Positions 14,716-36,208 of a DNA stretch of 64,000 nucleotides are shown here, in pieces. Position numbers and translations under genes: made by a program. Source of the stretch: Promineifilum sp. (GTDB taxonomy: Bacteria > Chloroflexota > Anaerolineae > Promineifilales > Promineifilaceae); contig JAGOBF010000001.1 in NCBI GenBank assembly GCA_017983515.1, positions 183,192 to 247,191 of the forward strand. The letters are read 5' to 3'. The notes beneath the pieces are model-generated. The model saw nothing but the letters and a program-made list of their open reading frames with translations, did not search any database and had not been told where the DNA came from. How positions within the stretch are numbered: the first letter of the stretch is position 1; each line of letters starts with the position of its first letter.

Positions 14716-14945
14716 TACTCTATACGGAAGTGACCGCCCAAGGTTTCACCGGGTTGCCGGCGCGTCGGGCCGGTCATCATCATGCCCATCATACACCACA
14801 ATGAGCCGTAGTTGAGGTAATCTAATTTATAGCGGCACTGTGCCCAGGCGATGCCGATATGCCCGCCGGCCGATATGCTGTTAAAATCCATTCAAACCTG
14901 ATCGTCCGGCGGGCCGGCCCATCGACCCGCCGCCTAAGTTGCCCT

Positions 14946-15776
14946 ATGACCCAAGTGGAAAAGAGATCCTTGCCCTCCAGCCTCTATACGGAAGAGTACT
15001 TCCTGACGGCGTGCGAAGGGTATGACGTATTCATCGAATCGGAGGGGGCGCATCTGTCGCGGCGGCTGCACGACGCCTTCGCCCTGGCCGACGTGCGGCC
15101 GGGTATGCGCCTGCTCGACGTAGGCTGTGGGCGCGGCGAGATCTTGCGCCACTGCATGCGCCTCGGCGTCGAAGCCCACGGCATGGATTACGCTGTGGCC
15201 GCGGCCCGGATGTCGCGCGAAGTAGTGGCCGCCGAAGTCGAGCGCGCCGCCGCCGAAGGCACGCCGTTGGTCTCGCAGCCGGGCGTGCTACAGGCCGACG
15301 CCAAAATCTTGCCCTTCCCCAGCCATTACTTCGACCGGGTGCTGATGTTCGACGTGGTGGAGCACCTCTTCCCGTGGGAACTGCATCAGGCCTACCTGGA
15401 GATCGCCCGCGTGCTCAAGCCCGGCGGCCGTCTGGTCATCCACACCGCCCCCAACCGCTGGTACGATGCCTACGCTTACCCGTGGGTGCGCCGGATTCGC
15501 ATTCTGCTGGGTCAGGGCGCGTCCTACCCCAAAGACCCGCGGGCCATCACGCCGGTTAATCAGGACGTCCACGTCAACGAACAAGACCTGCTGCGTATGC
15601 GCGGCGGCCTGAAGCAGGCCGGCTACACCGGCATCAAGGTCTGGCTCGATTCGCCGCCGCAGAACCGCACGGAGTCGCCGGTCATGGCCGGGCTGCGCCG
15701 CGTGGCCTTCGACATCCCGCCGTTCCGCTGGTTCTTCGAGCGCGAAGTCTTCGCCATCGCCGAACCCGGCCCGTAG
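14946..15776 (+). CDS. class I SAM-dependent methyltransferase
   Basis: 276 residues from ATG 14946; an upstream frame from 14859 encodes about 29 extra residues of unlikely composition. The SAM-binding motif MRLLDVGCGRGEILRHC (about 55-71) and motif ADAKILPFPSHYFDRVLMF (about 118-136) define a Rossmann methyltransferase. The RVLKPGGRLVIHTAPNRW segment is typical of methyltransferases acting on small molecules or glycans. The next gene, a GT-C glycosyltransferase, begins 37 bp downstream, so methylation of a glycan or lipid-linked sugar is a reasonable but untested idea. Confidence 0.85.
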   Translation: MTQVEKRSLPSSLYTEEYFLTACEGYDVFIESEGAHLSRRLHDAFALADVRPGMRLLDVGCGRGEILRHCMRLGVEAHGMDYAVAAARMSREVVAAEVERAAAEGTPLVSQPGVLQADAKILPFPSHYFDRVLMFDVVEHLFPWELHQAYLEIARVLKPGGRLVIHTAPNRWYDAYAYPWVRRIRILLGQGASYPKDPRAITPVNQDVHVNEQDLLRMRGGLKQAGYTGIKVWLDSPPQNRTESPVMAGLRRVAFDIPPFRWFFEREVFAIAEPGP

Positions 15777-15813: not shown

Positions 15814-17943
15814 ATGGCCAATGACGAACAGCCGGCCGGGAACGGTTGGCTTCGAGCAGCGCTCTTCAGTCGGCCGTCGGCCGTCGTTCTCCTCATCCTC
15901 CTGGCTGCCTTCGCCTTGCGCGTCTGGCATCTGACCGGCCTGCCGCCGGGCCTGACCCACGACGAGGCCAACCACGGCCGCGAGGCCATCGGCATCCTCA
16001 ACGGCGTTTACCTCTACTTTTTTCCGCTCAACTACGGCAGCGAGCCACTCTACAGCTACACGGTGGCCCTGTTCATGGCCCTGCTCGGTCGTGGCGTGCT
16101 GGCGCTGCGTCTGGTCAACGTCGTCTTCGGCACGGCGGCCATCGCCCTGACTTACGTCTGGGCTTCGCCCCGGCTCGGCCGCCCGGTCGCCCTGCTGGGC
16201 GCGGCGCTGATGGCCGTCTCCTTCTGGCCACTGGCCTCCAGCCGCGAGGCGCTGCGGGTCGGGATGCTGCCTTTCTTCATGGCCCTGGCGGTCTATGCCT
16301 TTTGGAGAATGACGCATAACGAACTCCGAATGACGAATGAAAATACGAGCGCGGTCCGCGAACCAGGGTTCCTGAGAGCCGGCCGACAGTCTGCGCCTGC
16401 CTCTACACGCCTCACTCGACACTCGTCATTCGTCATTCTCTTCGGTCTGGCTGTCGCCCTGACGCTCCACATCTATCTGGCGGCCCGAGTGAGCTGGCTG
16501 CTGTTCCCGGCGTTTCTGGCCTATCTGGCGCTGATCGACCGGGCCGCCTTTCGTCGCCTGTGGCCGTCGGCGCTGGCCGGGCTGTCGCTGGCGGCGGCCT
16601 TGGTCGCGCCCATGTTCCTCTATTTGCGCGCCCACCCGGAGATGCAGACCCGGCTGGACATGCTCGACCGGCCGCTGCAAGACATCGCCGCCGGCCGTTT
16701 CGGCCCCATCTGGTTGAACGTTCGCGACGCGCTGCTGGCTTTCGTCTGGCCCGGCTTCGGCGACCAGTTCCTGGCCTACAACATTCCCGGCCGGCCGGTG
16801 CTCGATGCCGTCTCGGCCGTATTCTTCGTGGCCGGCGTGCTCGTTTGCCTGGGGCGTTGGCGGCGGCCGGTCTACGCCTTTCTGCTGATGTGGTTCCTGA
16901 CGGGTATCATCCCGTCGCTCGTCACCGGCCCCACGGCCAACACCACCCGCAACATGGCCGCGCTGCCGGCCGTCTACCTGATCGTGGCCGTGGGGGCGGT
17001 CGCAGTAGTGGGGTGGCTGATGAGCCGAGTGACGAACGGCAAGCGCTCGTCATTCGTCACGGGTCGCTCGTCGCTCATCACGCTCCTGGTGCTGTGGGTG
17101 GCTTTCGTCTCGGCCCGCGATTACTTCGTGCGCTGGGGCGATTCGGCCGCGGTGCGCGGGGCCTATCAGCACACGTTGGTCGAATCGATCCGCCATCTGC
17201 AAGCCAACTATCCCGCCGCCGATCCCATCCTCTTCTCCACCATCTATCCCGGCCCGGCCCATGACTCATCCATCGCCCGGGTCGTGGCCGCCGCCAGCCC
17301 GCCCATCGGCGAAACGGCGCGCTGGGTCGATGCCCGCTACGCCTTGATTCTCCCGCCGGCCGCTACGCTGGCCGTCATCCCCTACTCCACGTCGCCCCAC
17401 CCGGTTTTCATCCCCCTGTTGGGGGCGCTGGAGACAGTCGATCTGCGTCCCGACGATCTCGATCCACGCTTCACCGTCTACCAGATCGATCCGGGCCAGA
17501 GTCGCGCGCTGCTGCGCTCACTGCCCGCCGGCCCGGCCGTCAACTTCAATGGGGCCATCGAACTACTCGGCGCGCGCTGGCTACAGAACAGCGTCCGTCC
17601 GGGTGCGACGGCCGAACTGCTGACTCTGTGGCGTGTGCTCGATCCCGCGCGGGCCGGGCCGGTCGTGCCCCCCAGCTTCACCACCGACGCCGTCCTGTTC
17701 ACCCATGTAGTGGACGGCGCGGGCGGCCTGCTGACCCAACGTGACGCGCTGGACGCGCCGTCGTGGGCCTGGCAGTCCGGCGACCTGATCGCCCAGGTTC
17801 ACCCGCTGACCGTCCCAACCTCGGCCGCGCCGGGAGCTTACGCGGCCGTCGTGGGCTTCTACGACCGCCAATCGGGCGCGCGTCTGCCGGTGGTCGGCGG
17901 CGGCGACACGGCCGCCGCCCCCCCGCTGCTGATCAGCCCCTAG
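15814..17943 (+). CDS. GT-C (ArnT/PMT-like) glycosyltransferase A
   Basis: 709 residues with about 11-12 membrane helices. The first extracytoplasmic loop has THDEANHGREAIGIL, the acidic motif of dolichyl/undecaprenyl-phosphate-sugar-dependent GT39/ArnT-like enzymes. Residues about 560-705 form a soluble C-terminal domain with beta character (GATAELLTLWRVLDPA; YAAVVGFYDRQSGARLP) that recurs in the genes at 21977, 24189 and 26324. Two repeat insertions break the membrane region, at residues about 167-209 and 405-422, without destroying the frame. The likely start codon itself sits in a GACGAATG repeat, so the true N-terminus is uncertain. Confidence 0.75.
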   Translation: MANDEQPAGNGWLRAALFSRPSAVVLLILLAAFALRVWHLTGLPPGLTHDEANHGREAIGILNGVYLYFFPLNYGSEPLYSYTVALFMALLGRGVLALRLVNVVFGTAAIALTYVWASPRLGRPVALLGAALMAVSFWPLASSREALRVGMLPFFMALAVYAFWRMTHNELRMTNENTSAVREPGFLRAGRQSAPASTRLTRHSSFVILFGLAVALTLHIYLAARVSWLLFPAFLAYLALIDRAAFRRLWPSALAGLSLAAALVAPMFLYLRAHPEMQTRLDMLDRPLQDIAAGRFGPIWLNVRDALLAFVWPGFGDQFLAYNIPGRPVLDAVSAVFFVAGVLVCLGRWRRPVYAFLLMWFLTGIIPSLVTGPTANTTRNMAALPAVYLIVAVGAVAVVGWLMSRVTNGKRSSFVTGRSSLITLLVLWVAFVSARDYFVRWGDSAAVRGAYQHTLVESIRHLQANYPAADPILFSTIYPGPAHDSSIARVVAAASPPIGETARWVDARYALILPPAATLAVIPYSTSPHPVFIPLLGALETVDLRPDDLDPRFTVYQIDPGQSRALLRSLPAGPAVNFNGAIELLGARWLQNSVRPGATAELLTLWRVLDPARAGPVVPPSFTTDAVLFTHVVDGAGGLLTQRDALDAPSWAWQSGDLIAQVHPLTVPTSAAPGAYAAVVGFYDRQSGARLPVVGGGDTAAAPPLLISP
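16311..16438 (+). repeat. in-frame dispersed repeat inside GT-C gene A
   Basis: ACTCCGAATGACGAATGAAA at the left and CTCGTCATTCGTCATTC at the right bracket about 40 codons within the coding frame, in a loop between membrane helices. A degenerate AACCAGGGTTCC element lies in the centre. Confidence 0.75.
17028..17080 (+). repeat. second in-frame dispersed repeat inside GT-C gene A
   Basis: GTGACGAACGG and CGTCATTCGTCAC flank AAGCGCTCGT in a partly palindromic arrangement. It encodes about 18 residues (RVTNGKRSSFVTGRSS) that interrupt two hydrophobic helices. Confidence 0.7.
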
Positions 17944-18082
17944 ACCGGCCCGCCGGCCCCGGACACCCCGGGCTCAAGGGCGAAACCATTTCTTTTGCGA
18001 CCTTGCCCGCCGCGCCCTTGCGTCAACTTCGCCCCCACTCCCTGCTTTGGAAAGCAAGCCCGTCTGCGCTATGATTACCCTC

Positions 18083-19051
18083 ATGGCCCGCAAGAAGTCG
18101 CCCGAAGAACTGAGCGCTGCCGAGCTGGAACGGCTGCTCTACGCGCGCCGCCACGTAGAACGGGAGCAGCGCCTGCGCCGCGCCCAGGCCGAGGGCCGCA
18201 TCGTCATCCCTGACCCCGACCGCGAGCCCTCCGCAGCCAACCCGGCCCTGCCGCCCGTGGAGGCCTCGCTGCCCGCCGCGCCCCGGCGCTCATTCTGGCG
18301 CTGGCTGGCCGATCGCGGCCTCTTGCTGGTCGAGATCCTCGCCGCCGTGGCCCTGCTGACCATCGTCGTCAGCCTGTGGACGACCAACAGCCGCCTCAAC
18401 CGCGAACTGGCCGCAGTGCAGGCCGCGCAAAGCCAGGCCCTGGCCTTGCCCACTGCCACGCCTCCCCCGAGCATCGGCGTCGTCCTGTTGCCCGGCGGCC
18501 ATCGCCCCCCGGTCGACGGCCAGGCTCCCCAACCGGGTGAAGCGGGCGGCATTCCCGAACACCTGTTGCCCATCGTCAACGCCTACGTGCCGCCGCCCAT
18601 CCCCACGCCCGGTCCCGAGACGGCCCGCCGCCTGGAGATTCCGGTCCTCAACGGCGACTATCCCATCGTGCAGGGTGACGACTGGGAACAGCTCAAGCAG
18701 GGCATCGGCCAATACGTCGGCAGCGGCCGCCCCGGCAAGCCCGGAAATGTCGTCCTGTCGGGCCATAACGACATCTACGGCGAGCCGTTCCGCTATCTGG
18801 ATCGTCTGAAGCCGGGCGACGAGATCATCGTCTCCACCGAACGGCAAACCTACACCTACGTTGTCAACGAGGTGCAGGTCGTCGACCCCACCGACGTGTG
18901 GGTGATGGGGCCGACCGACAATGCCCAGGTGACGCTGATTTCCTGCTACCCCTATCGCGTCAACACCCGCCGCATCGTTGTCTTCGCCGAACTGAGCGAC
19001 GGGAGCGCGACAACGAGCAACGACGTGGCGGCCGTGGCCCCCTCGCATTGA
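18083..19051 (+). CDS. sortase (class D/E-like)
   Basis: 322 residues from ATG 18083. The cytoplasmic N-terminus is rich in Arg and Glu (RRHVEREQRLRRAQAEGR), followed by one membrane anchor (about 75-105) and a low-complexity stretch, then the sortase barrel. Catalytic residues are all visible: His in LSGHNDIYG (about 226), Cys in TLISCYPYR (about 287), and Arg in NTRRIVVFAEL (about 296). Sortases join surface proteins to the cell wall or to each other at a C-terminal sorting motif. No obvious LPXTG-like substrate gene lies next to it. A -10-like TATGAT only 8 nt before the ATG hints at a leaderless message; weak evidence. Confidence 0.9.
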   Translation: MARKKSPEELSAAELERLLYARRHVEREQRLRRAQAEGRIVIPDPDREPSAANPALPPVEASLPAAPRRSFWRWLADRGLLLVEILAAVALLTIVVSLWTTNSRLNRELAAVQAAQSQALALPTATPPPSIGVVLLPGGHRPPVDGQAPQPGEAGGIPEHLLPIVNAYVPPPIPTPGPETARRLEIPVLNGDYPIVQGDDWEQLKQGIGQYVGSGRPGKPGNVVLSGHNDIYGEPFRYLDRLKPGDEIIVSTERQTYTYVVNEVQVVDPTDVWVMGPTDNAQVTLISCYPYRVNTRRIVVFAELSDGSATTSNDVAAVAPSH

Positions 19052-21720: not shown

Positions 21721-21755
21721 TCCCCAACCCTGAGTAGATACGCTCTACCTTCCCG

Positions 21756-21785
21756 CGCCGCACGCTCGTCCGTGCGGCGTTTTTG
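21756..21785 (+). terminator. terminator of infC-rpmI-rplT
   Basis: CGCCGCACG/CGTGCGGCG stem (21756-21764 and 21771-21779) followed by TTTTTG. Confidence 0.9.
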
Positions 21786-21976: not shown

Positions 21977-24196
21977 ATGGCACAGACCGCATCAGACAAT
22001 CGGGCGTCGACCCCCGCCGCGCTCCAGCTTCGCCGCACCGGGCTGATTCTGCTCGTCCTCCTGACGGCCGCCGCCTTGCGCCTGCTCGCCCTCCCGTCCG
22101 CTCCTCCCCGGATGACCGGCATCCCGCCCGGAATGACCCATGACGAAGCCGATCATGGTCTGACCGCCTGGCAGATCGTCAACGGCGCGCGCGAGGTCTA
22201 TTTCCCCGTCGGCTACGGCCGCGAACCGCTCTACGACTACGCCACGGCGCTGGTCATGTCCGGAACGGGGCCGACGATCCTGGCCGCCCGACTGACGTCG
22301 GTCTATTTCAGCCTGGTGATGATCGCCGCCGTCTATGCCTGGGCGCGTCGCGCGTTCGGCCGGCCGGTGGCCCTGCTGGCCGCCGCCGGGTTGGCCGTCG
22401 GCTTCTGGCCGGTCATGGCCGGGCGGCAGGCCCTGCGGTCGATTGCCCTGCCGGCGGTCTTCGCCTTGGCGTCATTATTCTTTTGGCGGGCTATGACGGC
22501 TGGCAGCAATTCTCTCCGGCCCTCCCTCGCCCCTGCTTCGCGGCGGCCTCTCGTCCTTTTTGCTGTCGCCGGCCTTCTCCTCGGCCTTGCCTTCTACACC
22601 TACATTCCCGCCCGCATCATGTGGCCGGCTCTTCCGGCGCTGGCCGTCTACCTGGCATTTACGCCCCGGGCCGCCGCTACCCGTGGCCGCCTGCTGGGCG
22701 GAACAGTGCTAACATTACTCATGGCCGCGGCCGTCGCCGCGCCGCTATTCGTCCATCTGGCGAATAACCCCGGCCTGGAGGTGCGCATTGACGAACTGAG
22801 CGCGCCGCTGCGGGCCGCGGCCGATGGCGACTTCACGCCGCTCTGGGCCAACGCTCGCGGCGCGCTGCGGCTGTTCACCCTCGAGGGCGACCAGACCTGG
22901 CGCTACAATATTCCCGGCAAGCCGTTTCTGGGGCCGCTCATGGGTCTTCTGTTCTACCTGGGCCTGCTCGTCGCCGGCTGGCTGGCGATTCGTGCTCTCG
23001 GAACCCCGGTTACTTCCGAAAAACCGGGTTTCTATCCCGAACGCCCTGAAAACCGATTTCTCGCGGAAAAACCCGGTTTCCATCCGGCCGCCGCCGGGCC
23101 TGGTGCGTTCCTCGCCCTCGTCTGGCTGGCGCTCGGCTTTGCCCCGGTGCTGGTCACCGGGCCGGGGCTGAGCATGACTCAGGCCATCGGCGTGCTGCCG
23201 GTGCTCTACGTCTTCCCGGCGCTGGCGCTGGCGGCCGGCTATCGGGTAATTGTGAAAGTGACGGCCGCCCGCCGCCCGCCGGCCGGAGCAACGAATGAAG
23301 GTCATTCAGTGGACAATGATCAGTGGCCAGTGATCGGCGCTCTCGTCGCCCTGGCTCTGTTCGCGACGGTTGGCGCGCTGACCGCCCGCGACTACTTCGG
23401 CCGTTGGGCCAACGCGCCGGAAGTGCGCGTGCAATACGAGACGACGATGGTAACCGCGCTGCGCTATCTCGACCGGAACAACGGCGGTGACGCAGCCATC
23501 TCCACCATCACCCCCGGCCGCTACCACACCCCCGCCGTCGCCCTGCTGACACTCCACAATCCCGCCGTTCGCCCGCGCTGGTTCGACGGTCGCCAAAGCC
23601 TCATCCTGCCCGGCGCTTCCGGGGGCACCCTGGTCATCCCCGGCTTTGCCCCTCTCCCGGCCGAATTACAGCCCTATGTGCTCGATGCGACCCTGGTCGA
23701 CGAGCTGCCCCTGCGCCCCGACGACCTCGACCGGCCGCTGCGGATCTACGCGCTCGACCGGCCGGGCATCGACGTCGCTTCCCAGATGACGCCGCTACGG
23801 CCCGACAGCTCGCGGACATCCATTCAATTTGGGGATCATGCCCTCTTGTTGGCTTACGATCTTGCCCCGGCTGAAGTCCATCCGGGCGACACGTTGGCGC
23901 TGGTGACGGTCTGGCAACTCGAGCAGCCCTTGCCAGATGCCTCGCTCTTTGCCCACGTCGTCGGCCCCGACGGTCGGCCCATCGCCGTGGCCGACAGCCT
24001 GGGCGCGCCGGGCGAGTCGTGGGTAAGCGGCGACATTTTGCTGCAATTGCACACTCTCCTCATCCCTCTCGATGCCCCGGCCGGGGAGTACCCGCTGGTC
24101 GTGGGTCTCTACACCCGGCCGGACGGCGCGCGACTGACGACGACGGATGGCCAGAGCATGGCCACCCTGACGAGGGTGACGGTGACGCATGAATGA
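21977..24196 (+). CDS. GT-C glycosyltransferase B
   Basis: 739 residues with about 11 membrane helices. THDEADHGLTAWQIVNG in the first large loop has the GT39/ArnT-type acidic pair. Hydrophobic helices follow to about residue 430, and the C-terminal 150 residues form the soluble beta-rich module (DTLALVTVWQLEQPLPDASL; GLYTRPDGARLTTTDG). Frame-preserving repeats lie at residues about 340-373 (EKPGFYPERP ... EKPGFHPAA) and 439-453. The next gene starts 8 nt before its stop, so translation is coupled. Likely substrates are polyprenyl-phosphate sugars; the acceptor is unknown. Confidence 0.75.
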   Translation: MAQTASDNRASTPAALQLRRTGLILLVLLTAAALRLLALPSAPPRMTGIPPGMTHDEADHGLTAWQIVNGAREVYFPVGYGREPLYDYATALVMSGTGPTILAARLTSVYFSLVMIAAVYAWARRAFGRPVALLAAAGLAVGFWPVMAGRQALRSIALPAVFALASLFFWRAMTAGSNSLRPSLAPASRRPLVLFAVAGLLLGLAFYTYIPARIMWPALPALAVYLAFTPRAAATRGRLLGGTVLTLLMAAAVAAPLFVHLANNPGLEVRIDELSAPLRAAADGDFTPLWANARGALRLFTLEGDQTWRYNIPGKPFLGPLMGLLFYLGLLVAGWLAIRALGTPVTSEKPGFYPERPENRFLAEKPGFHPAAAGPGAFLALVWLALGFAPVLVTGPGLSMTQAIGVLPVLYVFPALALAAGYRVIVKVTAARRPPAGATNEGHSVDNDQWPVIGALVALALFATVGALTARDYFGRWANAPEVRVQYETTMVTALRYLDRNNGGDAAISTITPGRYHTPAVALLTLHNPAVRPRWFDGRQSLILPGASGGTLVIPGFAPLPAELQPYVLDATLVDELPLRPDDLDRPLRIYALDRPGIDVASQMTPLRPDSSRTSIQFGDHALLLAYDLAPAEVHPGDTLALVTVWQLEQPLPDASLFAHVVGPDGRPIAVADSLGAPGESWVSGDILLQLHTLLIPLDAPAGEYPLVVGLYTRPDGARLTTTDGQSMATLTRVTVTHE
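22995..23090 (+). repeat. in-frame AACCGGGTTTC repeats in GT-C gene B
   Basis: Two copies of an EKPGF-encoding element (GAAAAACCGGGTTTCTATCC and GGAAAAACCCGGTTTCCATC) lie close together. Each is a palindrome of the AACCGG type seen in other gaps. Confidence 0.75.
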
Positions 24197-26327
24197 CCTG
24201 ACCCTCTATCGGCCCGCCCCGCCGGCCCATCCCGGCCGCGAATTATTGCGCGCCCTCGTCCGTCGTCCGGCCACATGGGCCGTCCTCATCACCCTGCTGG
24301 GCTTCGGCTTGCGCGTCTGGGCGCTGGAGCGCGTGCCCCCCGGCTGGCGCGACGACGAGCTAATCGAGACCCTGGTCATCTCACAGAACATTCTCGACGG
24401 TAACCTGGCCTTCTACTACCCCGACGCCTCCGGCCACGAGGCGCTCTACCACGCCCTGAATGCCATTTTCCTGGCCTTTTTCGGGCCGACCGGGCTGGGC
24501 ATTCGCCTGCTATCGGCTTTTCTGGGGACGTTGGCCGTGTCGCTGACCTACGCGCTGGGCCGGCGCATGTTCGGCGCGGCCGTCGGGTTGTCGGCGTCGG
24601 CGCTGCTGGCGGTCGCCTTCTGGGGCCTCATGTACTCCCGCGTCGGCATCCGTCACAGCCTGACGCCGGTGCTGGCCTTGGCGGCGTTCTACTGGTTCTG
24701 GCGGGCGATGGCGGCCGAGAGGGGCAGCAGGGGCGACAGGGCGACCGGGCGACCGGGCACTCAGGTTCTCCCCCGCGCGCTCTCGTGCTTCCTAGCCGCC
24801 GGCCTCTTCCTCGGTCTTGGCTTCCATGCCTACTTCGCCTCGCGCGGCGCGCCGCTCATCCCGGCCGCGTTCGTGGTCTACGTGCTGCTGGTCGCTCCGT
24901 CTCTCCTGCGCAGTAAATGGCCGGGACTGGCGCTCATGGCCGGACTGACGGCGCTGGTGGCTGCCCCGCTGCTGCTGGCTGTGGCCGTGCAGCCGGAGGC
25001 CGAAGGGCGCGTCGGCGAATTGGCCCTGCCCCTGGTGGAGGCAAGGGCGGGCAACTTCGGCCCGATCATCGACCACGCCGTCGCCGCGCTGACCATGACC
25101 CACGCCGGCGGCGACCCGGAATGGCTCTACAACATCCCCGAACGGCCGATCTTCGGCCCGCCCGGCGCGATCTTTTTCTGGGTGGGCGTGGCCCTGGCCG
25201 GATGGCGGGCGTTCCGACCCCTCAAAAACCGGGTTTGGCGTACAGGAGTGCGCGCCGAAGAACTCGCTGTCTGGCCCGACAACAGCGAGCTGGCCGCCGC
25301 CTTCCTGCTCATCTGGTGGCTGGTCGGCATTTCCCCGGCCGTGCTCAGCGTCCCCCCGGCCAGCATGGGCCACGTGATCCTGGCTCAACCGGCGTTCTAC
25401 CTGCTGGCCGCTCTACCCATCGGCGCATTGGCCGGTGGATCGCGCCGGCCCGTCTCCTGGCGCTTGGCGCTGGCCGGGTCGGCTGCTGTGAGCCTGTTCG
25501 CCGCTACGGCCTTGCGCGACATACCGGCCTACTTCGTCGAATGGCCGTCGCGCGGTATGGTGCGCTTCCTCTATCATGCCGACGTCGAGGACGTAGCCGA
25601 CTTCATCCGGCGCGATCCGGCCGCGCCCTGGCCGGTCGATTTCGGCATCACCGGCCCGCTGGCTGGCCCGTGGAACCGCATCGCCCTGGAGCTGGCCTTG
25701 GGCGACGCCGGCGTGCGGCCGCGCTGGTACAATCCGGAGCGGGCCTTGCTGCTCTGGCCCGACGTCAGCTTCAGTGGCTACCCGGCCGTCGACTCGCCCT
25801 ACGCAAGCGTGTTCGACCCGCTGCCGCAGGACGCGCTGCTGCTCGGCGGCTACACCCTGGCCCGCGTCGCCCCCAGCGTCACGCCCATGATGGGCGCGGG
25901 CCAGCTCTGGCTCAGCGAGGCCCCGGTCTGCTTCGCCAATGGTCTGTGCTGGACGTCGGCCGGCTACAATCCCACCAGCGGCGTGCTGGAACTGGAATGG
26001 CGCGTCGCCGGCGATTTGGCGCTGCCCGATATGCCCCTCATCAGCAACCCGCCGCCGCCGGGTGTCTACGCCGGGCTGCGCCTGTCGGTCTTCGCCCAAC
26101 TACTCAATGCGAACGGCGACTTCCTGGTCGGCGACGACGGCCTGTGGGTAGACCCCGAAACGTTGCGCGACGGCGATGTCTTCCTCCAGCGTCACTACCT
26201 GCGCCCGCCCGACGGCTCATCCCCGGCGGCCATCGTGTTCGGCCTCTACGATCCGATGACCGGCCAGCGAATCCTCCTCGCCGACGGGCAGGATCACCTG
26301 CCACTCGATTGGATGGGGCAGCCATGA
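24189..26327 (+). CDS. GT-C glycosyltransferase C
   Basis: 712 residues, 10-11 membrane helices. The first loop has WRDDELIETLVISQNILDGN, the acidic pair of the family. The C-terminal 140 residues resemble the soluble module of gene B (GDVFLQRH; IVFGLYDPMTGQRILL). A low-complexity insertion rich in Arg and Gly (ERGSRGDRATGRPGTQ, residues about 177-192) and a LKNRVWRTGVRAEEL segment (about 344-358) look like repeat-derived loops. It overlaps gene B by 8 nt and gene D by 4 nt (ATGA), so the trio is probably one transcript. Confidence 0.75.
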   Translation: MNDLTLYRPAPPAHPGRELLRALVRRPATWAVLITLLGFGLRVWALERVPPGWRDDELIETLVISQNILDGNLAFYYPDASGHEALYHALNAIFLAFFGPTGLGIRLLSAFLGTLAVSLTYALGRRMFGAAVGLSASALLAVAFWGLMYSRVGIRHSLTPVLALAAFYWFWRAMAAERGSRGDRATGRPGTQVLPRALSCFLAAGLFLGLGFHAYFASRGAPLIPAAFVVYVLLVAPSLLRSKWPGLALMAGLTALVAAPLLLAVAVQPEAEGRVGELALPLVEARAGNFGPIIDHAVAALTMTHAGGDPEWLYNIPERPIFGPPGAIFFWVGVALAGWRAFRPLKNRVWRTGVRAEELAVWPDNSELAAAFLLIWWLVGISPAVLSVPPASMGHVILAQPAFYLLAALPIGALAGGSRRPVSWRLALAGSAAVSLFAATALRDIPAYFVEWPSRGMVRFLYHADVEDVADFIRRDPAAPWPVDFGITGPLAGPWNRIALELALGDAGVRPRWYNPERALLLWPDVSFSGYPAVDSPYASVFDPLPQDALLLGGYTLARVAPSVTPMMGAGQLWLSEAPVCFANGLCWTSAGYNPTSGVLELEWRVAGDLALPDMPLISNPPPPGVYAGLRLSVFAQLLNANGDFLVGDDGLWVDPETLRDGDVFLQRHYLRPPDGSSPAAIVFGLYDPMTGQRILLADGQDHLPLDWMGQP

Positions 26328-28684
26328 GCGTCGACGAAGTTACTAATCCCGAATTCCGAATGACGAATGAACCGCGCGCGGCCGCCGGCGGTCAATGGCC
26401 CCTGCTCGCTATCCTGATCGCCTTTCTGCTCCTGGGATTCGCCTACAGCGCCATCAACCCCCTGCACGAGGCCACCGACGAGCTGCGCCACTACCGCTTC
26501 GTACAGCATCTCATCCAGCGCCACTCGCTGCCGGTGCAGGGCGAGGCGGGTGGGCTGGACTGCACCGTGCAAGGCCATCACCCGCCGCTCTACTATTTGG
26601 CTGCTGCTCTGGTCACCGCCGGCATCGATACCGGCCGCGACCTGTGTTATCAGCCACCGGTCAACCCTTTCTGGGCCTACCGCTATTGGGAGGTCGGCCG
26701 CGACAACAAGAACCAATATCTCCACGGCCCCGACGAGGCCTTTCCCTGGCGCGGCGAAGCGCTGGCCGCGCATCTGGCCCGGGTGGTCAACCTGCTGTTC
26801 GGAGCGCTGACCGTGTGGCTGACGTGGGCCACGGCGCGCGTCATCTGGCCCCGTCGCCCATCGTTGGCCGCGGGGTCGGCGGCCTTCGTGGCCTTCAACC
26901 CCATGTTCCTTTATATGGCCGCGGCAATCAACAACGACGTCGTGGCCGCCGCCGCCGGCGCGGCCGTCATCTACGCCTGCGTCCGGCTGCTGCGCGATGA
27001 ACGCGGCCTGTCGTGGCGCTGGGGCGTGTGGCTGGGGGCGCTCTACGGCCTGGCCCTGATGAGCAAGTTCAATCTGGCGGCCATCATCGTCGTCATCGAG
27101 GCCGCCGTCACCTGGGTGGCCTGGCGGCGCGGCCAGTGGCGGCTGTGGCTGGCGGTGAACCTGCTGATCGCCGGCATGGCCGGGCTGATCGCTGGATGGT
27201 GGTTCGTTCGCAATCAATTGCTCTACGGCGAGCCGACTGGCTTTGAGAAGTTGACCGAACTGTGGGGCGTACGCGATCCGCGCGACAGCTTCCGGCTGGC
27301 CCTGTCGGAACTGCCCTACGCCTGGTCGAGCCTCTGGGGTCGTTTCGGCTATGGCCAGATCCCCCTGCCATCGTGGATCTACGCCGCCCTGTTCGGCGTG
27401 CTGCTGGCATCTGTGGGCGGCTACGTAAGAGGGGGTGTGCGGCGCAGAAAGAAGACGGCCGAGAAAGGGTCAGCAAGCGTTCCCCTGCTGCTCCTCGTCC
27501 TCAACGTAGCCCTCTTCTTCGCCGTGCTGTTCAACTACCTGCTGGTCAGTCCCGCCGGGCCGATGGGTCGCTTTTTCTTCCCTGCCCTGTCGTCGCTGGC
27601 AATACTGATGTTCTACGGCCTGACCTTGCTGGTGAACGGTAAAACTGAAGTGACGCAAGGCAAATTACGAACGGCGAACCAATCGCCCTCTTCACGGGTC
27701 ACTGATCGTTGGCGACTGGCCGTCATCACCAATCTATTGCTGCTGGCCCTCTCCCTGGTCGCCCTGTTCGGCTATCTCCGACCGGCCTACGCGCGGCCGC
27801 CGTCCTTCGCCGCCGCTGCCTCGCTGCCCAATCCGGTCGATGTCCGCTTCGATACGTTTGTCGCCCTGCGCGGTTACGCGGTCGATACCGAGCGCGTGCG
27901 GCCGGGCGAGCCGATCGGCATCGAGCTATACTGGGAAGTGCTGGGCACGCCGCCGGGCGACTATCTGCTCTTCGTCCACCTGATCGACGACGAGACCGGC
28001 GCGCTGGTGACCCAACGCGACACCTACCCCGGCCTGGGCAACTTCCCCAGCAGCCAATGGCGGCCGGGCGACCGCTTCGTCGAGCGCCTGCGCGTCTACC
28101 TGCCCGAGACGGCTTACGCGCCGGCCGCCGCCGCTCTCCGCATCGGCCTCTATGCCCCCGAAGGCTACCGGTTGGGCATCACCGACGGCGCGACCGGCGC
28201 GGGGCTGGGCGACGCTTTTCCCATCGGCCGCGTCGCCATCGATGCCCGCACATCCGACGAGGCCACCATCCCCAATCCCGGCCGCTACAACTTCGAGAAT
28301 CGCCTCCGGCTGCTGGGCTATGGCTACGGCGCGCGCGTTCTGGCCCCCGGCGCGCCGGCCGGTCTGACGCTCTATTGGGAGGCGTTGCGGCCGTCGCCGG
28401 GCGACTACGAGGTCCAGATCCGGCTGCTCGACGCCGGCGGCAACGTCCTCGCCACGCAGCAAGCCCGGCCGGGCAACGGCGCGCGCCCCACGACGGCCTG
28501 GCCGCCGGGTGAGGTCGTCGTGGAGACCTACCAGATTCCATTCGACGCGCCCGCGGGCACCTCCATTACACCGGAGATCATCCTGATCGATGCCGCCACG
28601 GGCGCGCGCCTCAATTTGATCGGCGACGACGGCCGCTGGCTCTTCGACTACCTTCGCCTGTCGCCCATCGTCATAACAGAATGA
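26324..28684 (+). CDS. GT-C-type membrane protein D with two C-terminal beta modules
   Basis: 786 residues from ATG 26324, which overlaps the stop of gene C; a longer Arg-rich frame upstream is noncoding. The N-terminal 17 residues derive partly from a GAATTCCGAATGACGAATG repeat. The first loop has LHEATDELRHYRFVQHLI, a GT-C/DUF2142-like acidic motif. About 11 helices follow, with a repeat-derived loop at residues about 442-464. The C-terminus carries two copies of the module (about 505-640 and 650-780; YWEVLGTPPGDYLLFVHLID and YWEALRPSPGDYEVQIRLLD), an internal duplication absent in its neighbours. Role: probable lipid-linked sugar transferase or carbohydrate-binding partner of B and C. Confidence 0.7.
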   Translation: MSVDEVTNPEFRMTNEPRAAAGGQWPLLAILIAFLLLGFAYSAINPLHEATDELRHYRFVQHLIQRHSLPVQGEAGGLDCTVQGHHPPLYYLAAALVTAGIDTGRDLCYQPPVNPFWAYRYWEVGRDNKNQYLHGPDEAFPWRGEALAAHLARVVNLLFGALTVWLTWATARVIWPRRPSLAAGSAAFVAFNPMFLYMAAAINNDVVAAAAGAAVIYACVRLLRDERGLSWRWGVWLGALYGLALMSKFNLAAIIVVIEAAVTWVAWRRGQWRLWLAVNLLIAGMAGLIAGWWFVRNQLLYGEPTGFEKLTELWGVRDPRDSFRLALSELPYAWSSLWGRFGYGQIPLPSWIYAALFGVLLASVGGYVRGGVRRRKKTAEKGSASVPLLLLVLNVALFFAVLFNYLLVSPAGPMGRFFFPALSSLAILMFYGLTLLVNGKTEVTQGKLRTANQSPSSRVTDRWRLAVITNLLLLALSLVALFGYLRPAYARPPSFAAAASLPNPVDVRFDTFVALRGYAVDTERVRPGEPIGIELYWEVLGTPPGDYLLFVHLIDDETGALVTQRDTYPGLGNFPSSQWRPGDRFVERLRVYLPETAYAPAAAALRIGLYAPEGYRLGITDGATGAGLGDAFPIGRVAIDARTSDEATIPNPGRYNFENRLRLLGYGYGARVLAPGAPAGLTLYWEALRPSPGDYEVQIRLLDAGGNVLATQQARPGNGARPTTAWPPGEVVVETYQIPFDAPAGTSITPEIILIDAATGARLNLIGDDGRWLFDYLRLSPIVITE
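26341..26370 (+). repeat. repeat element in the start of GT-C gene D
   Basis: AATCCCGAATTCCGAATGAC followed by GAATGA supplies residues TNPEFRMTNE of the protein. Same family as 15800-15830 and 16311-16438. Confidence 0.75.
27649..27714 (+). repeat. in-frame repeat inside GT-C gene D
   Basis: Mosaic of GTGACGCAAGG, AATTACGAACGG, and GGGTCACTGATCG words read in frame between helices. The last word also recurs in gaps such as 23307-23336. Confidence 0.6.
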
Positions 28685-28788: not shown

Positions 28789-28816
28789 TTGACAGGGTAG
28801 GGGGGCCTTGTATACT
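28789..28816 (+). promoter_or_regulatory. promoter upstream of the SWIM-type mini-protein
   Basis: Perfect TTGACA (28789-28794), a 16-nt spacer and TATACT (28811-28816). Transcription would start near 28823, well before the hairpin at 28871. Confidence 0.75.
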
Positions 28817-28870: not shown

Positions 28871-28903
28871 ACGCACGCCTGACCGCGTGCGTTTTTTGTT
28901 TTT
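28871..28903 (+). terminator. leader terminator or attenuator upstream of the SWIM gene
   Basis: ACGCACGC/GCGTGCGT stem with a 6-nt loop and TTTTTTGTTTTT. It lies between the promoter at 28789 and the gene start at 28950, so it would release an RNA of about 80 nt unless antitermination occurs. Control signal unknown. Confidence 0.8.
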
Positions 28904-28949: not shown

Positions 28950-29198
28950 ATGGATTATGGGATGATCGGCAAGATTGAAAAGGCGAAGTTCTATGCGGAA
29001 GAACGCGATTTGCGCATTACCTTTCAATCGCTGGAGGCGAGTATCCTGGGCGACAACGATGTCACCCATCAGGTAACGTATGACGACGGTCAATGGCATT
29101 GTGACTGCAACTACTTCGGTTCGCATCAGGTTTGCAGCCACACCATGGCGATGGAGCGTGTCCTCGGCAATATGGTCGAGATGGGTGTTCCCGCCTAG
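28950..29198 (+). CDS. small SWIM-type zinc-finger protein
   Basis: 82 residues from ATG 28950 (AGAGGAG ribosome-binding site); a frame from 28887 would begin inside the leader hairpin. The C-terminal half has CDC-x8-CSH (C51, C53, C62, H64), the CxCxnCxH zinc ligand pattern of the SWIM domain that binds DNA or proteins. The N-terminal half is a small beta-rich stretch (KAKFYAEERDLRITFQSL). No partner gene is evident. An intrinsic terminator follows, so it is a single-gene unit. Confidence 0.75.
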   Translation: MDYGMIGKIEKAKFYAEERDLRITFQSLEASILGDNDVTHQVTYDDGQWHCDCNYFGSHQVCSHTMAMERVLGNMVEMGVPA

Positions 29199-35008: not shown

Positions 35009-36208
35009 CTAGCCGGGCCAGGCCACTTCCAGCGCGTGGCACCTGCCACGGGTCAGCCAGCCGTAGCTCGTATCCGGAGCCGGGTTGAGGATGGTCATCT
35101 CGATGGGCGGAGAGCCGTCGCCCTGGACGAAGAAGACCTGCACGTGAACCGATGGATGGCTAATGTCGAGGTCCTGAATCCAGCCGCTGTCCGTCCAGCC
35201 CTCGTCGGCCCACCAGGTAGCCAGCACGCGGCCGCCCGTTTCCTGGACGACGAAGGTGCCGCGGCGCGCCACGTCGGGCCCCATTTCGAAGTCGATGCGC
35301 AGGCAGGAGTCCAGGCGGGCCGGCCGGGTCGGAGTCGGCGTGGCCGTGCCCTCGAAGGGGCCGGGCGGCGGCTTCACGGTCGGCGTCGGCGTCTGCGTCA
35401 TGGTCGGCGTAAACGAAGGCGTCATGGTAGCAGTCGGCGTGATCTCGGTCGTGGCCGTGGGCGTCGCCGTCTCGGTCATCGTGCCAGTCGGCGTCGCCGT
35501 GATCGTGCCGGTCGACGTCGCCGTGGGGGTGGACGTGGACGTCGGCGTGGCCGTCAGCGTCGAGGTCAACGTGACGGTCGGCGTCATCGTCAGGGTGGCG
35601 GTCATGGTTGCCGTCGCCGTCGGCGTCGCCGTAGAGGTCTCCGTCACAGTCGGCGTCATGGTTGGAGTCGACGTCGTTTGGTTCCCGCAGATGGTAATCG
35701 CCAAGCCGACGCTGTCATTGGCGAAGAAGGTTATCTCACCATCTTCGGGCATGACGAACGAGCCATAGGTTACCATGCCCTGCGGGACAGTATGCACGAG
35801 CGCACCGTTGACATAGAAGTGATTGATACGATCATCGACGTCATCGTCGATCTGCACGTAATCAATGACGCAACCAATCTGGGAAGGCCCAAAGCTCACC
35901 CCTTCACCATAGAGAATGACTTCTCCACCGGGAGTGAACTCGAAATCCCAGACGCGTTCGCCCGCCTTGGCCGTATAGTTGGGGCCGGGCAGCTCCTTGT
36001 AATCGTTGCGCCGATATTTGATCACAAAGGTATGATCGGGGTTGATCGTAAGGGGGCCGCCGGCTTCCCCAAGATACTCAACCCGAGGCAGAGAAGGAAC
36101 TTCCTGCTGCGGGGCATTACCAGGGGTGATTGCCGGGGATCCCATCATGCTTGCCCATGCCACTATGAGCAGGGCGATGAATCCGAGAAAGGCTATGGTT
36201 TGTTTCAC
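35009..36208 (-). CDS. secreted protein with long Thr/Pro-rich linker
   Basis: 399 residues from a GTG at 36208 with GGAGG before it. A signal peptide (about 1-26, FLGFIALLIVAWASMM) is followed by a beta-rich domain of about 130 residues, then a linker of about 110 residues consisting almost only of Thr, Pro, Ala and Met/Leu (TATPTATATMTATLTMTPTV and similar), and a C-terminal domain of about 100 residues (DSCLRIDFEMGPDVARRGTF). Such linkers are often O-glycosylated, which ties in with the GT-C genes. No catalytic motif seen; a structural or adhesive role is possible. Confidence 0.7.
   Translation of the reverse strand: MKQTIAFLGFIALLIVAWASMMGSPAITPGNAPQQEVPSLPRVEYLGEAGGPLTINPDHTFVIKYRRNDYKELPGPNYTAKAGERVWDFEFTPGGEVILYGEGVSFGPSQIGCVIDYVQIDDDVDDRINHFYVNGALVHTVPQGMVTYGSFVMPEDGEITFFANDSVGLAITICGNQTTSTPTMTPTVTETSTATPTATATMTATLTMTPTVTLTSTLTATPTSTSTPTATSTGTITATPTGTMTETATPTATTEITPTATMTPSFTPTMTQTPTPTVKPPPGPFEGTATPTPTRPARLDSCLRIDFEMGPDVARRGTFVVQETGGRVLATWWADEGWTDSGWIQDLDISHPSVHVQVFFVQGDGSPPIEMTILNPAPDTSYGWLTRGRCHALEVAWPG

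Follow-up and report, generated by a model that had tools for sequence, protein, structure and literature searches.

Three overlapping genes of the Chloroflexota bacterium Promineifilum sp. (genes B, C, and D) and a fourth gene upstream (gene A) encode membrane glycosyltransferases of the GT-C type, and all four proteins end with a similar soluble domain. What is this domain, and what would enzymes of this kind use it for? The window analysed here is the whole stretch of 64,000 nucleotides from contig JAGOBF010000001.1, and positions are counted from its first letter. The genes and the hairpins around them (the latter from a consensus scan only) are as follows.

15814..17943, + strand: gene A, 709-aa membrane glycosyltransferase of GT-C type, paralogous to B and C; PF02366 at 26.8 bits, above the cut-off
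21755..21780, + strand: terminator-like hairpin in the rplT-B interval
21977..24196, + strand: gene B, GT-C glycosyltransferase, 739 aa, ArnT-like core; PF13231 at 27.4 bits
24189..26327, + strand: gene C, GT-C glycosyltransferase, 712 aa; PF13231 at 35.4 bits; 8-nt overlap with B
26324..28684, + strand: gene D, 786-aa GT-C glycosyltransferase from a different subfamily; PF02366 at 2e-10, PF13231 at 3e-10
28871..28892, + strand: terminator-like hairpin 3' of D

Four GT-C genes

All four genes are intact reading frames, and the overlaps given by the first-pass annotation (8 nt between B and C, 4 nt between C and D) are confirmed by the coordinates, the second being an ATGA. Each protein exceeds the curated cut-off of PMT (PF02366) or PMT_2 (PF13231) and has 8-10 transmembrane (TM) peaks. 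The acidic catalytic motif of GT-C enzymes is found in the loop after TM1, which is the first extracytoplasmic one (residue 50-60), as HDEA in A and B, DDEL in C, and TDEL in D, and D56 is invariant across 13 B-type proteins. While A, B, and C are paralogs over their full length (29-36% identity; 36% across about 700 aa between A and B by BLASTP, E 6e-94), D belongs to a different GT-C subfamily.

Matches to gene C are present in all 20 family genomes. C-type and D-type genes adjoin in at least nine of these 20, and the other side of C is usually occupied by a B-type gene, indicating that the B-C-D unit is conserved in much of the family. In other Chloroflexota, 33 relatives of D align from its N-terminal part onward, most of them over the full length.

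A C-terminal module in five copies

The common tail that had been noticed in these proteins, and described as a domain of about 140 residues, corresponds to a homologous module of about 125 residues at the C-terminal end of A, B, and C, which the tail of D contains in each of its halves. Homology was tested by comparing local alignment scores with those of shuffled sequences. The two copies in D (D1 and D2) are borne out with z = 26.7, and the other pairs give z = 27.3 (A/B), 17.3 (D1/A), 13.6 (D1/B), 8.9 (B/C), 7.8 (A/C), and 6.0 (D1/C). By this test only the D2/C pair is not significant (z 1.7). BLASTP is concordant with these scores, and an iterated HMM recovers all five copies with E from 1e-16 to 1e-36. 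They are listed here with their iE-values from the HMM and with the state of a conserved set of columns, the face, described below.

17524..17916, + strand: A module, iE 5e-31; face intact (F,H,Q,D,Y,R)
23807..24172, + strand: B module, iE 3e-33; structural match to the Wzt carbohydrate-binding domain (CBD) 8dky
25920..26309, + strand: C module, the most diverged, iE 1e-16; face F-Q-G-D-Q-G-Y-R kept in orthologs
27824..28198, + strand: D module 1 (D residues 501-625), iE 9e-37; face intact (FHQD-E-GYR)
28268..28648, + strand: D module 2 (D residues 649-775), iE 1e-33; D1-like fold, face degenerate

The pattern YWE...PGDYLLFVHLID that was ascribed to all these tails occurs literally in D1; A, B, C, and D2 have diverged versions of it. 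The first-pass annotation could not name the family, and indeed no Pfam or NCBIfam model matches the module at threshold, either on whole proteins (both libraries) or on 43 separate modules (Pfam). No prior description of the module was found in the literature searched.

Distribution of the module

The module is common to A-D as proposed but not special to them, since a profile search matches it on many further GT-C proteins. In the host genome (2.8 Mb, 69% complete), 27 proteins together carry 46 copies according to the iterated HMM, as counted from the search tool and from retrieved stretches of genome. Complete chains have one to three copies, every one of them after the last TM peak, and the distance between the last copy and the C-terminus is mostly 5-20 residues. 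Of the 29 PMT_2-matching frames in this genome, 22 have the module; the others are for the most part short frames (476-561 aa).

Each of three genus mates contains 50-53 copies (E 1e-5), and 48 of 121 genomes in the phylum have a module match. Proteins with four copies also exist. The taxonomic range beyond Chloroflexota was judged from the best 79 loci only among GTDB species representatives; these are Chloroflexota by title or by our placement of names, and mostly Anaerolineae and unclassified Chloroflexi. Searches of plasmids and viral contigs found no relatives.

Hosts of the module include PMT/PMT_2, TMEM260-like, and PTPS_related membrane proteins, and three loci (L196, L160, and L077) where the chain is without a recognised GT-C core. 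Because the host families differ, its behaviour is that of an accessory domain which moves between extracytoplasmic contexts. Its extracytoplasmic location is suggested by the topology of GT-C proteins together with the lipoprotein and DUF3485 hosts described next.

L196 (2375-4420) encodes a DUF3485 protein (EpsI/exosortase-associated type) with three C-terminal modules, a connection to systems of exopolysaccharide or exosortase type. The lipoprotein-like chain of L160 (2891-4375) has two modules, the last with an intact face, and is possibly a secreted sugar-binding lipoprotein. L077 encodes a short chain with one TM peak. Another host, a 1321-aa membrane protein (L170, 635-4597), has two modules with both faces intact and does not have any Pfam match. 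Three short ORFs that were candidates for free-standing modules were set aside. One (L078, 6635-7411), which resembles ThiC at its start and continues into a module, seems to be misassembled or chimeric, probably a chimeric contig. The other two (L079, 7594-8379, and L154) may be frame-broken.

Probable relationship to the carbohydrate-binding domain of Wzt

Two structure models are available. Gene B (AF2, 13-row alignment) is predicted with pLDDT 78.8 and pTM 0.81, the blocks of its module mostly with pLDDT 83-93 and one with 69. Residues 489-786 of D (AlphaFold, 89 aligned tandem segments) are predicted as two beta-sandwiches with pLDDT 93.8. D1, D2, and B have a common strand order and spacing, so the predicted folds do not differ between the genes, in models covering B and the D tail; A and C align with B over their full length.

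When B is compared with the PDB, its core matches the GT-C enzymes (ArnT, OST, and PMT) with Z 20-26: ArnT 5f15 has VIA Z 26.2 (residues 17-595), followed by archaeal AglB (25.8), OST (25), and Pmt (22). The identity of B to ArnT (GT83), AglB, and PMT enzymes is 10-15%. Nothing in ArnT (5f15, 5ezm) is aligned to the B module, as the aligned range stops at residue 595. For the module by itself, the CBDs of Wzt lead the matches (2r5o at E 2e-3 and 8dky at E 3e-3 by Foldseek; also 6o14). The 8dky structure, which contains 3-O-methyl-mannose, superposes on the B module over 113 residues with an rmsd of 2.8 A. With this match the modelled B module has the Wzt_C-type beta-sandwich fold. The VIA Z of 8.0 is modest, however, at a level described as common by the tool, and since Ig-like folds occur very generally, the fold by itself tells little.

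The tandem model of D has generic Ig-like top matches: RbmA, Ig-like domains of GH2, arrestin, and transglutaminase. RbmA, a biofilm scaffold of Vibrio cholerae, has the top Foldseek rank and also consists of two tandem beta-sandwich domains. It is, however, a secreted protein that is not part of an enzyme, and the match has TM-scores of only 0.3-0.4 and an rmsd of about 10 A over both domains.

Sequence profiles were compared as well. With the Pfam model Wzt_C (PF14524), four of the 43 modules match below an E-value limit of 10 (the best with 0.0013), and two whole proteins reach 17-20 bits (best 20.3). No module exceeds the cut-off of 30.4 bits. The module hosts are also GT-C proteins and not the ABC ATPase found in Wzm/Wzt transporters. 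With scores below the cut-off and a different context, the module is not filed under PF14524. When 458 collected module hits are aligned by hhalign, profile to profile, with the Aquifex sequence plus 16 Wzt_C domains from relatives, the result is E 1.9e-6 and probability 90 over 93 columns. The controls give E 4e-4 and probability 35 (GH2 Ig-like) and E 0.02 and probability 2 (reversed Wzt_C); all these E-values are for single pairs and are not database-corrected. BsuPI (PF12690), meant as a second Ig-like control, has no members in 30 relatives. Profile matches of the modules to PDB sequences are weak: immunoglobulin constant regions (0.015), a mouse protein (0.019), beta-glucuronidase (0.06), and RbmA (0.3). 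The hhalign comparison is suggestive of the module and Wzt_C being distant homologues, the GH2 control being weaker but not nil.

Wzt CBDs themselves exist in the host genome. A true Wzt_C domain above the cut-off is found at C6:102235-102636 (L113) and a weaker one at C7:79716-80000, so that CBDs of exporters and modules of GT-C proteins coexist in one genome.

A candidate sugar-contact face

Comparison of terminal or single modules with internal ones distinguishes the columns F52, H54, Q65, D67, G108, Y110, and R117 (also D88). These columns were found before the contact residues of Wzt were consulted. In the host genome, F52 is present in 11/13 terminal or single modules vs 4/17 internal modules, H54 in 10/13 vs 3/17, D67 in 12/13 vs 6/17, and Y110 in 12/13 vs 3/12. 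The fold residues L17, W39, W80, and G83 are about equally frequent in both classes, and columns 51, 53, 55, 107, and 109 are hydrophobic in both. This alternation with hydrophobic neighbours suggests that the face columns point away from the core on one sheet.

In the Wzt-CBD of A. aeolicus, the sugar lies on strands 3, 4, 6, and 7 and is contacted by Asn313, His350, Leu300, Thr346, Ala348, and Trp362 (PMC9445017). The hhalign alignment places Leu300, Asn313, Thr346, Ala348, and His350 at module columns 54, 67, 106, 108, and 110 (the numbering of Aquifex Wzt was verified at 11 residues). When the 90 columns are ranked by gain of conservation in terminal over internal modules, these five rank 5, 2, 62, 3, and 1, respectively, so that four of the five contacts stand out. 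Random sets of five columns equal the ranks of the five pre-listed contacts with P ~1e-5. Note that the module set used for this statistic was not chosen by motif: the GTDB loci had been picked by the pattern YxVFxHL, and conservation statistics therefore come from the host genome and the HMM-found loci. The residues themselves differ, as expected for a different ligand: Asn313 corresponds to Asp in the module, His350 to Tyr, Ala348 to Gly, and Leu300 to His. The column of Thr346 (106) is not conserved, and Trp362 is outside the aligned stretch.

Most proteins keep a single intact face. Among 13 multi-module proteins of the host genome, ten have one intact face, two have two, and one has none; in 11 of the 13 the last module has an intact face. 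The face is conserved in 11/13 terminal and in 11/13 single modules of this genome. In the HMM-found set from other genomes (n=32), 19 proteins have one intact face and ten have two. Many internal copies have a variable face and preserve the fold residues.

Gene D is an exception in the place of the intact face, which is on D1 and not on the last module, but not in the number. The D1 face, FHQD-(E/D)-GYR, is kept in every ortholog with a complete module. That of D2 is degenerate in all orthologs covering it and different in nearly each one (QRTQ, QWTD, EAQW, etc.). The duplication in D is real, but with D1 kept and D2 variable its copies seem not to be equivalent. Orthologs of B have the face F(H/Q)(Q/V)D and those of C have F(Q/H)GD, His replacing the first Gln of the C face in two of them.

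Proposed role of the module

The first-pass annotation had suggested a carbohydrate-binding or acceptor-recognition domain, and sugar binding is the part of this suggestion that gains support, from the Wzt CBD fold, the profile similarity, and the conserved contact columns. The module is probably an extracytoplasmic, Wzt-CBD-like sugar-binding domain on GT-C glycosyltransferases, sugar binding being deduced from sequence and predicted structure. Similarity to the Wzt CBD (PF14524; E. coli 2R5O, A. aeolicus 8DKY) includes the beta-sandwich, a similar length, B's best module-level PDB match, the profile similarity, and the selective conservation of aligned contact columns, and we infer that the module functions like a CBD of this type. 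Wzt_C, however, forms the C-terminal end of an ABC ATPase in the cytoplasm, while the module is on apparently extracytoplasmic parts of GT-C enzymes, in one to four tandem copies, below the Pfam cut-off, and with different contact residues.

As a class, GT-C membrane glycosyltransferases take their sugars from lipid-linked donors on the outer side of the membrane. A Wzt-CBD-related beta-sandwich appended to their C-terminus would be outside the cytoplasm, where one module per enzyme may hold a glycan, probably the acceptor or the growing product, near the active site. Holding the glycan would raise its local concentration or set acceptor specificity, as the C-terminal carbohydrate-binding module (CBM) does in EmbC. 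Degenerate copies such as D2 could be spacers or modules with diverged ligands. Mycobacterial EmbC is likewise a GT-C glycosyltransferase with a C-terminal carbohydrate-binding domain, and Trp mutants in this CBM lose acceptor binding and LAM extension (PMC3044687). Subdomain II of EmbC is, however, a lectin-like CBM, and the module has no sequence or fold match to it among the matches listed; the absence of this CBM from the fold matches carries no information.

A wider and clearly more tentative proposal is that this family reads the surface glycans of Chloroflexota on dozens of GT-C enzymes per genome, each with a single working sugar-reading face beside degenerate copies, and with acceptor specificity evolving by duplication of modules and change of the face independently of the core. 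Carbohydrate-binding tails on GT-C enzymes are already known. New with respect to the literature and libraries searched are the module, its expansion, and its likely relationship with Wzt.

The alternative with most weight, though somewhat unlikely, is a generic Ig-like docking domain whose face binds an envelope protein, the GT-C core, or a neighbouring module and no sugar. Ig-like folds are often protein-protein domains. The resemblance of the D tandem to arrestin, transglutaminase, and RbmA folds is in line with docking, and a single conserved face per protein is also compatible with a single docking site. Intact faces on the three chains without a GT-C core (L077, L160, and L196) argue against docking to the core, but not against docking to other proteins. 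Together with the position of the intact face on D1, they indicate more than a surface for docking to the core or at the C-terminus. In addition, what the module of B matches best is a domain that binds sugar and whose contact columns are aligned with it.

Quite improbable is recognition of a protein or peptide acceptor by enzymes that would be protein O-mannosyltransferases or OST-like. It is true that the cores match PMT, TMEM260-like, and STT3 models and structures of OST and PMT, but these GT-C Pfam names are also given to enzymes whose acceptors are lipids or glycans. In the PDB the B core is closest to ArnT, which has lipid A as its acceptor, and nothing specific indicates peptide binding. 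A rigid stalk or spacer made by tandem duplication, without a specific ligand, would suit the many internal copies with a variable face and preserved fold residues, but is very improbable given the selective conservation of one face in terminal and single modules and across the D1 orthologs.

If the sugar-binding reading is right, a tail that is very common on the membrane glycosyltransferases of some Chloroflexota gains a name and a binding face that can be tested, and the sugar-reading domain of an exporter is linked to enzymes building surface glycans. The module HMM could then annotate the tails of many proteins for which only the GT-C core is recognised at present, and the choice of acceptor by GT-C enzymes could be tested in a laboratory host by removing or swapping the module.

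Neighbouring genes

The gene rplT (L20) is located 256 nt 5' of the start of B, with infC further upstream. There is no obvious polysaccharide cluster around B-C-D. A promoter-like site (28789-28816, consensus match only) exists between D and the hairpin at 28871-28892, and given this order the hairpin may belong to another transcript. A short ORF past the hairpin (28951-29198) encodes a CxC...CxH pattern (CDCNYFGSHQVCSH) that is SWIM-finger-like by eye; it has no Pfam match.

Directly 3' of gene A is a gene for a sortase-domain protein (18047-19051), and a methyltransferase gene (14859-15776) is upstream of A. Gene A and these two possibly form a small cell-surface cluster. Another protein, encoded on the minus strand at 35009-36208, has a long Thr/Pro-rich linker of low complexity (TPTMTPTVTETST...) and is likely surface-exposed.
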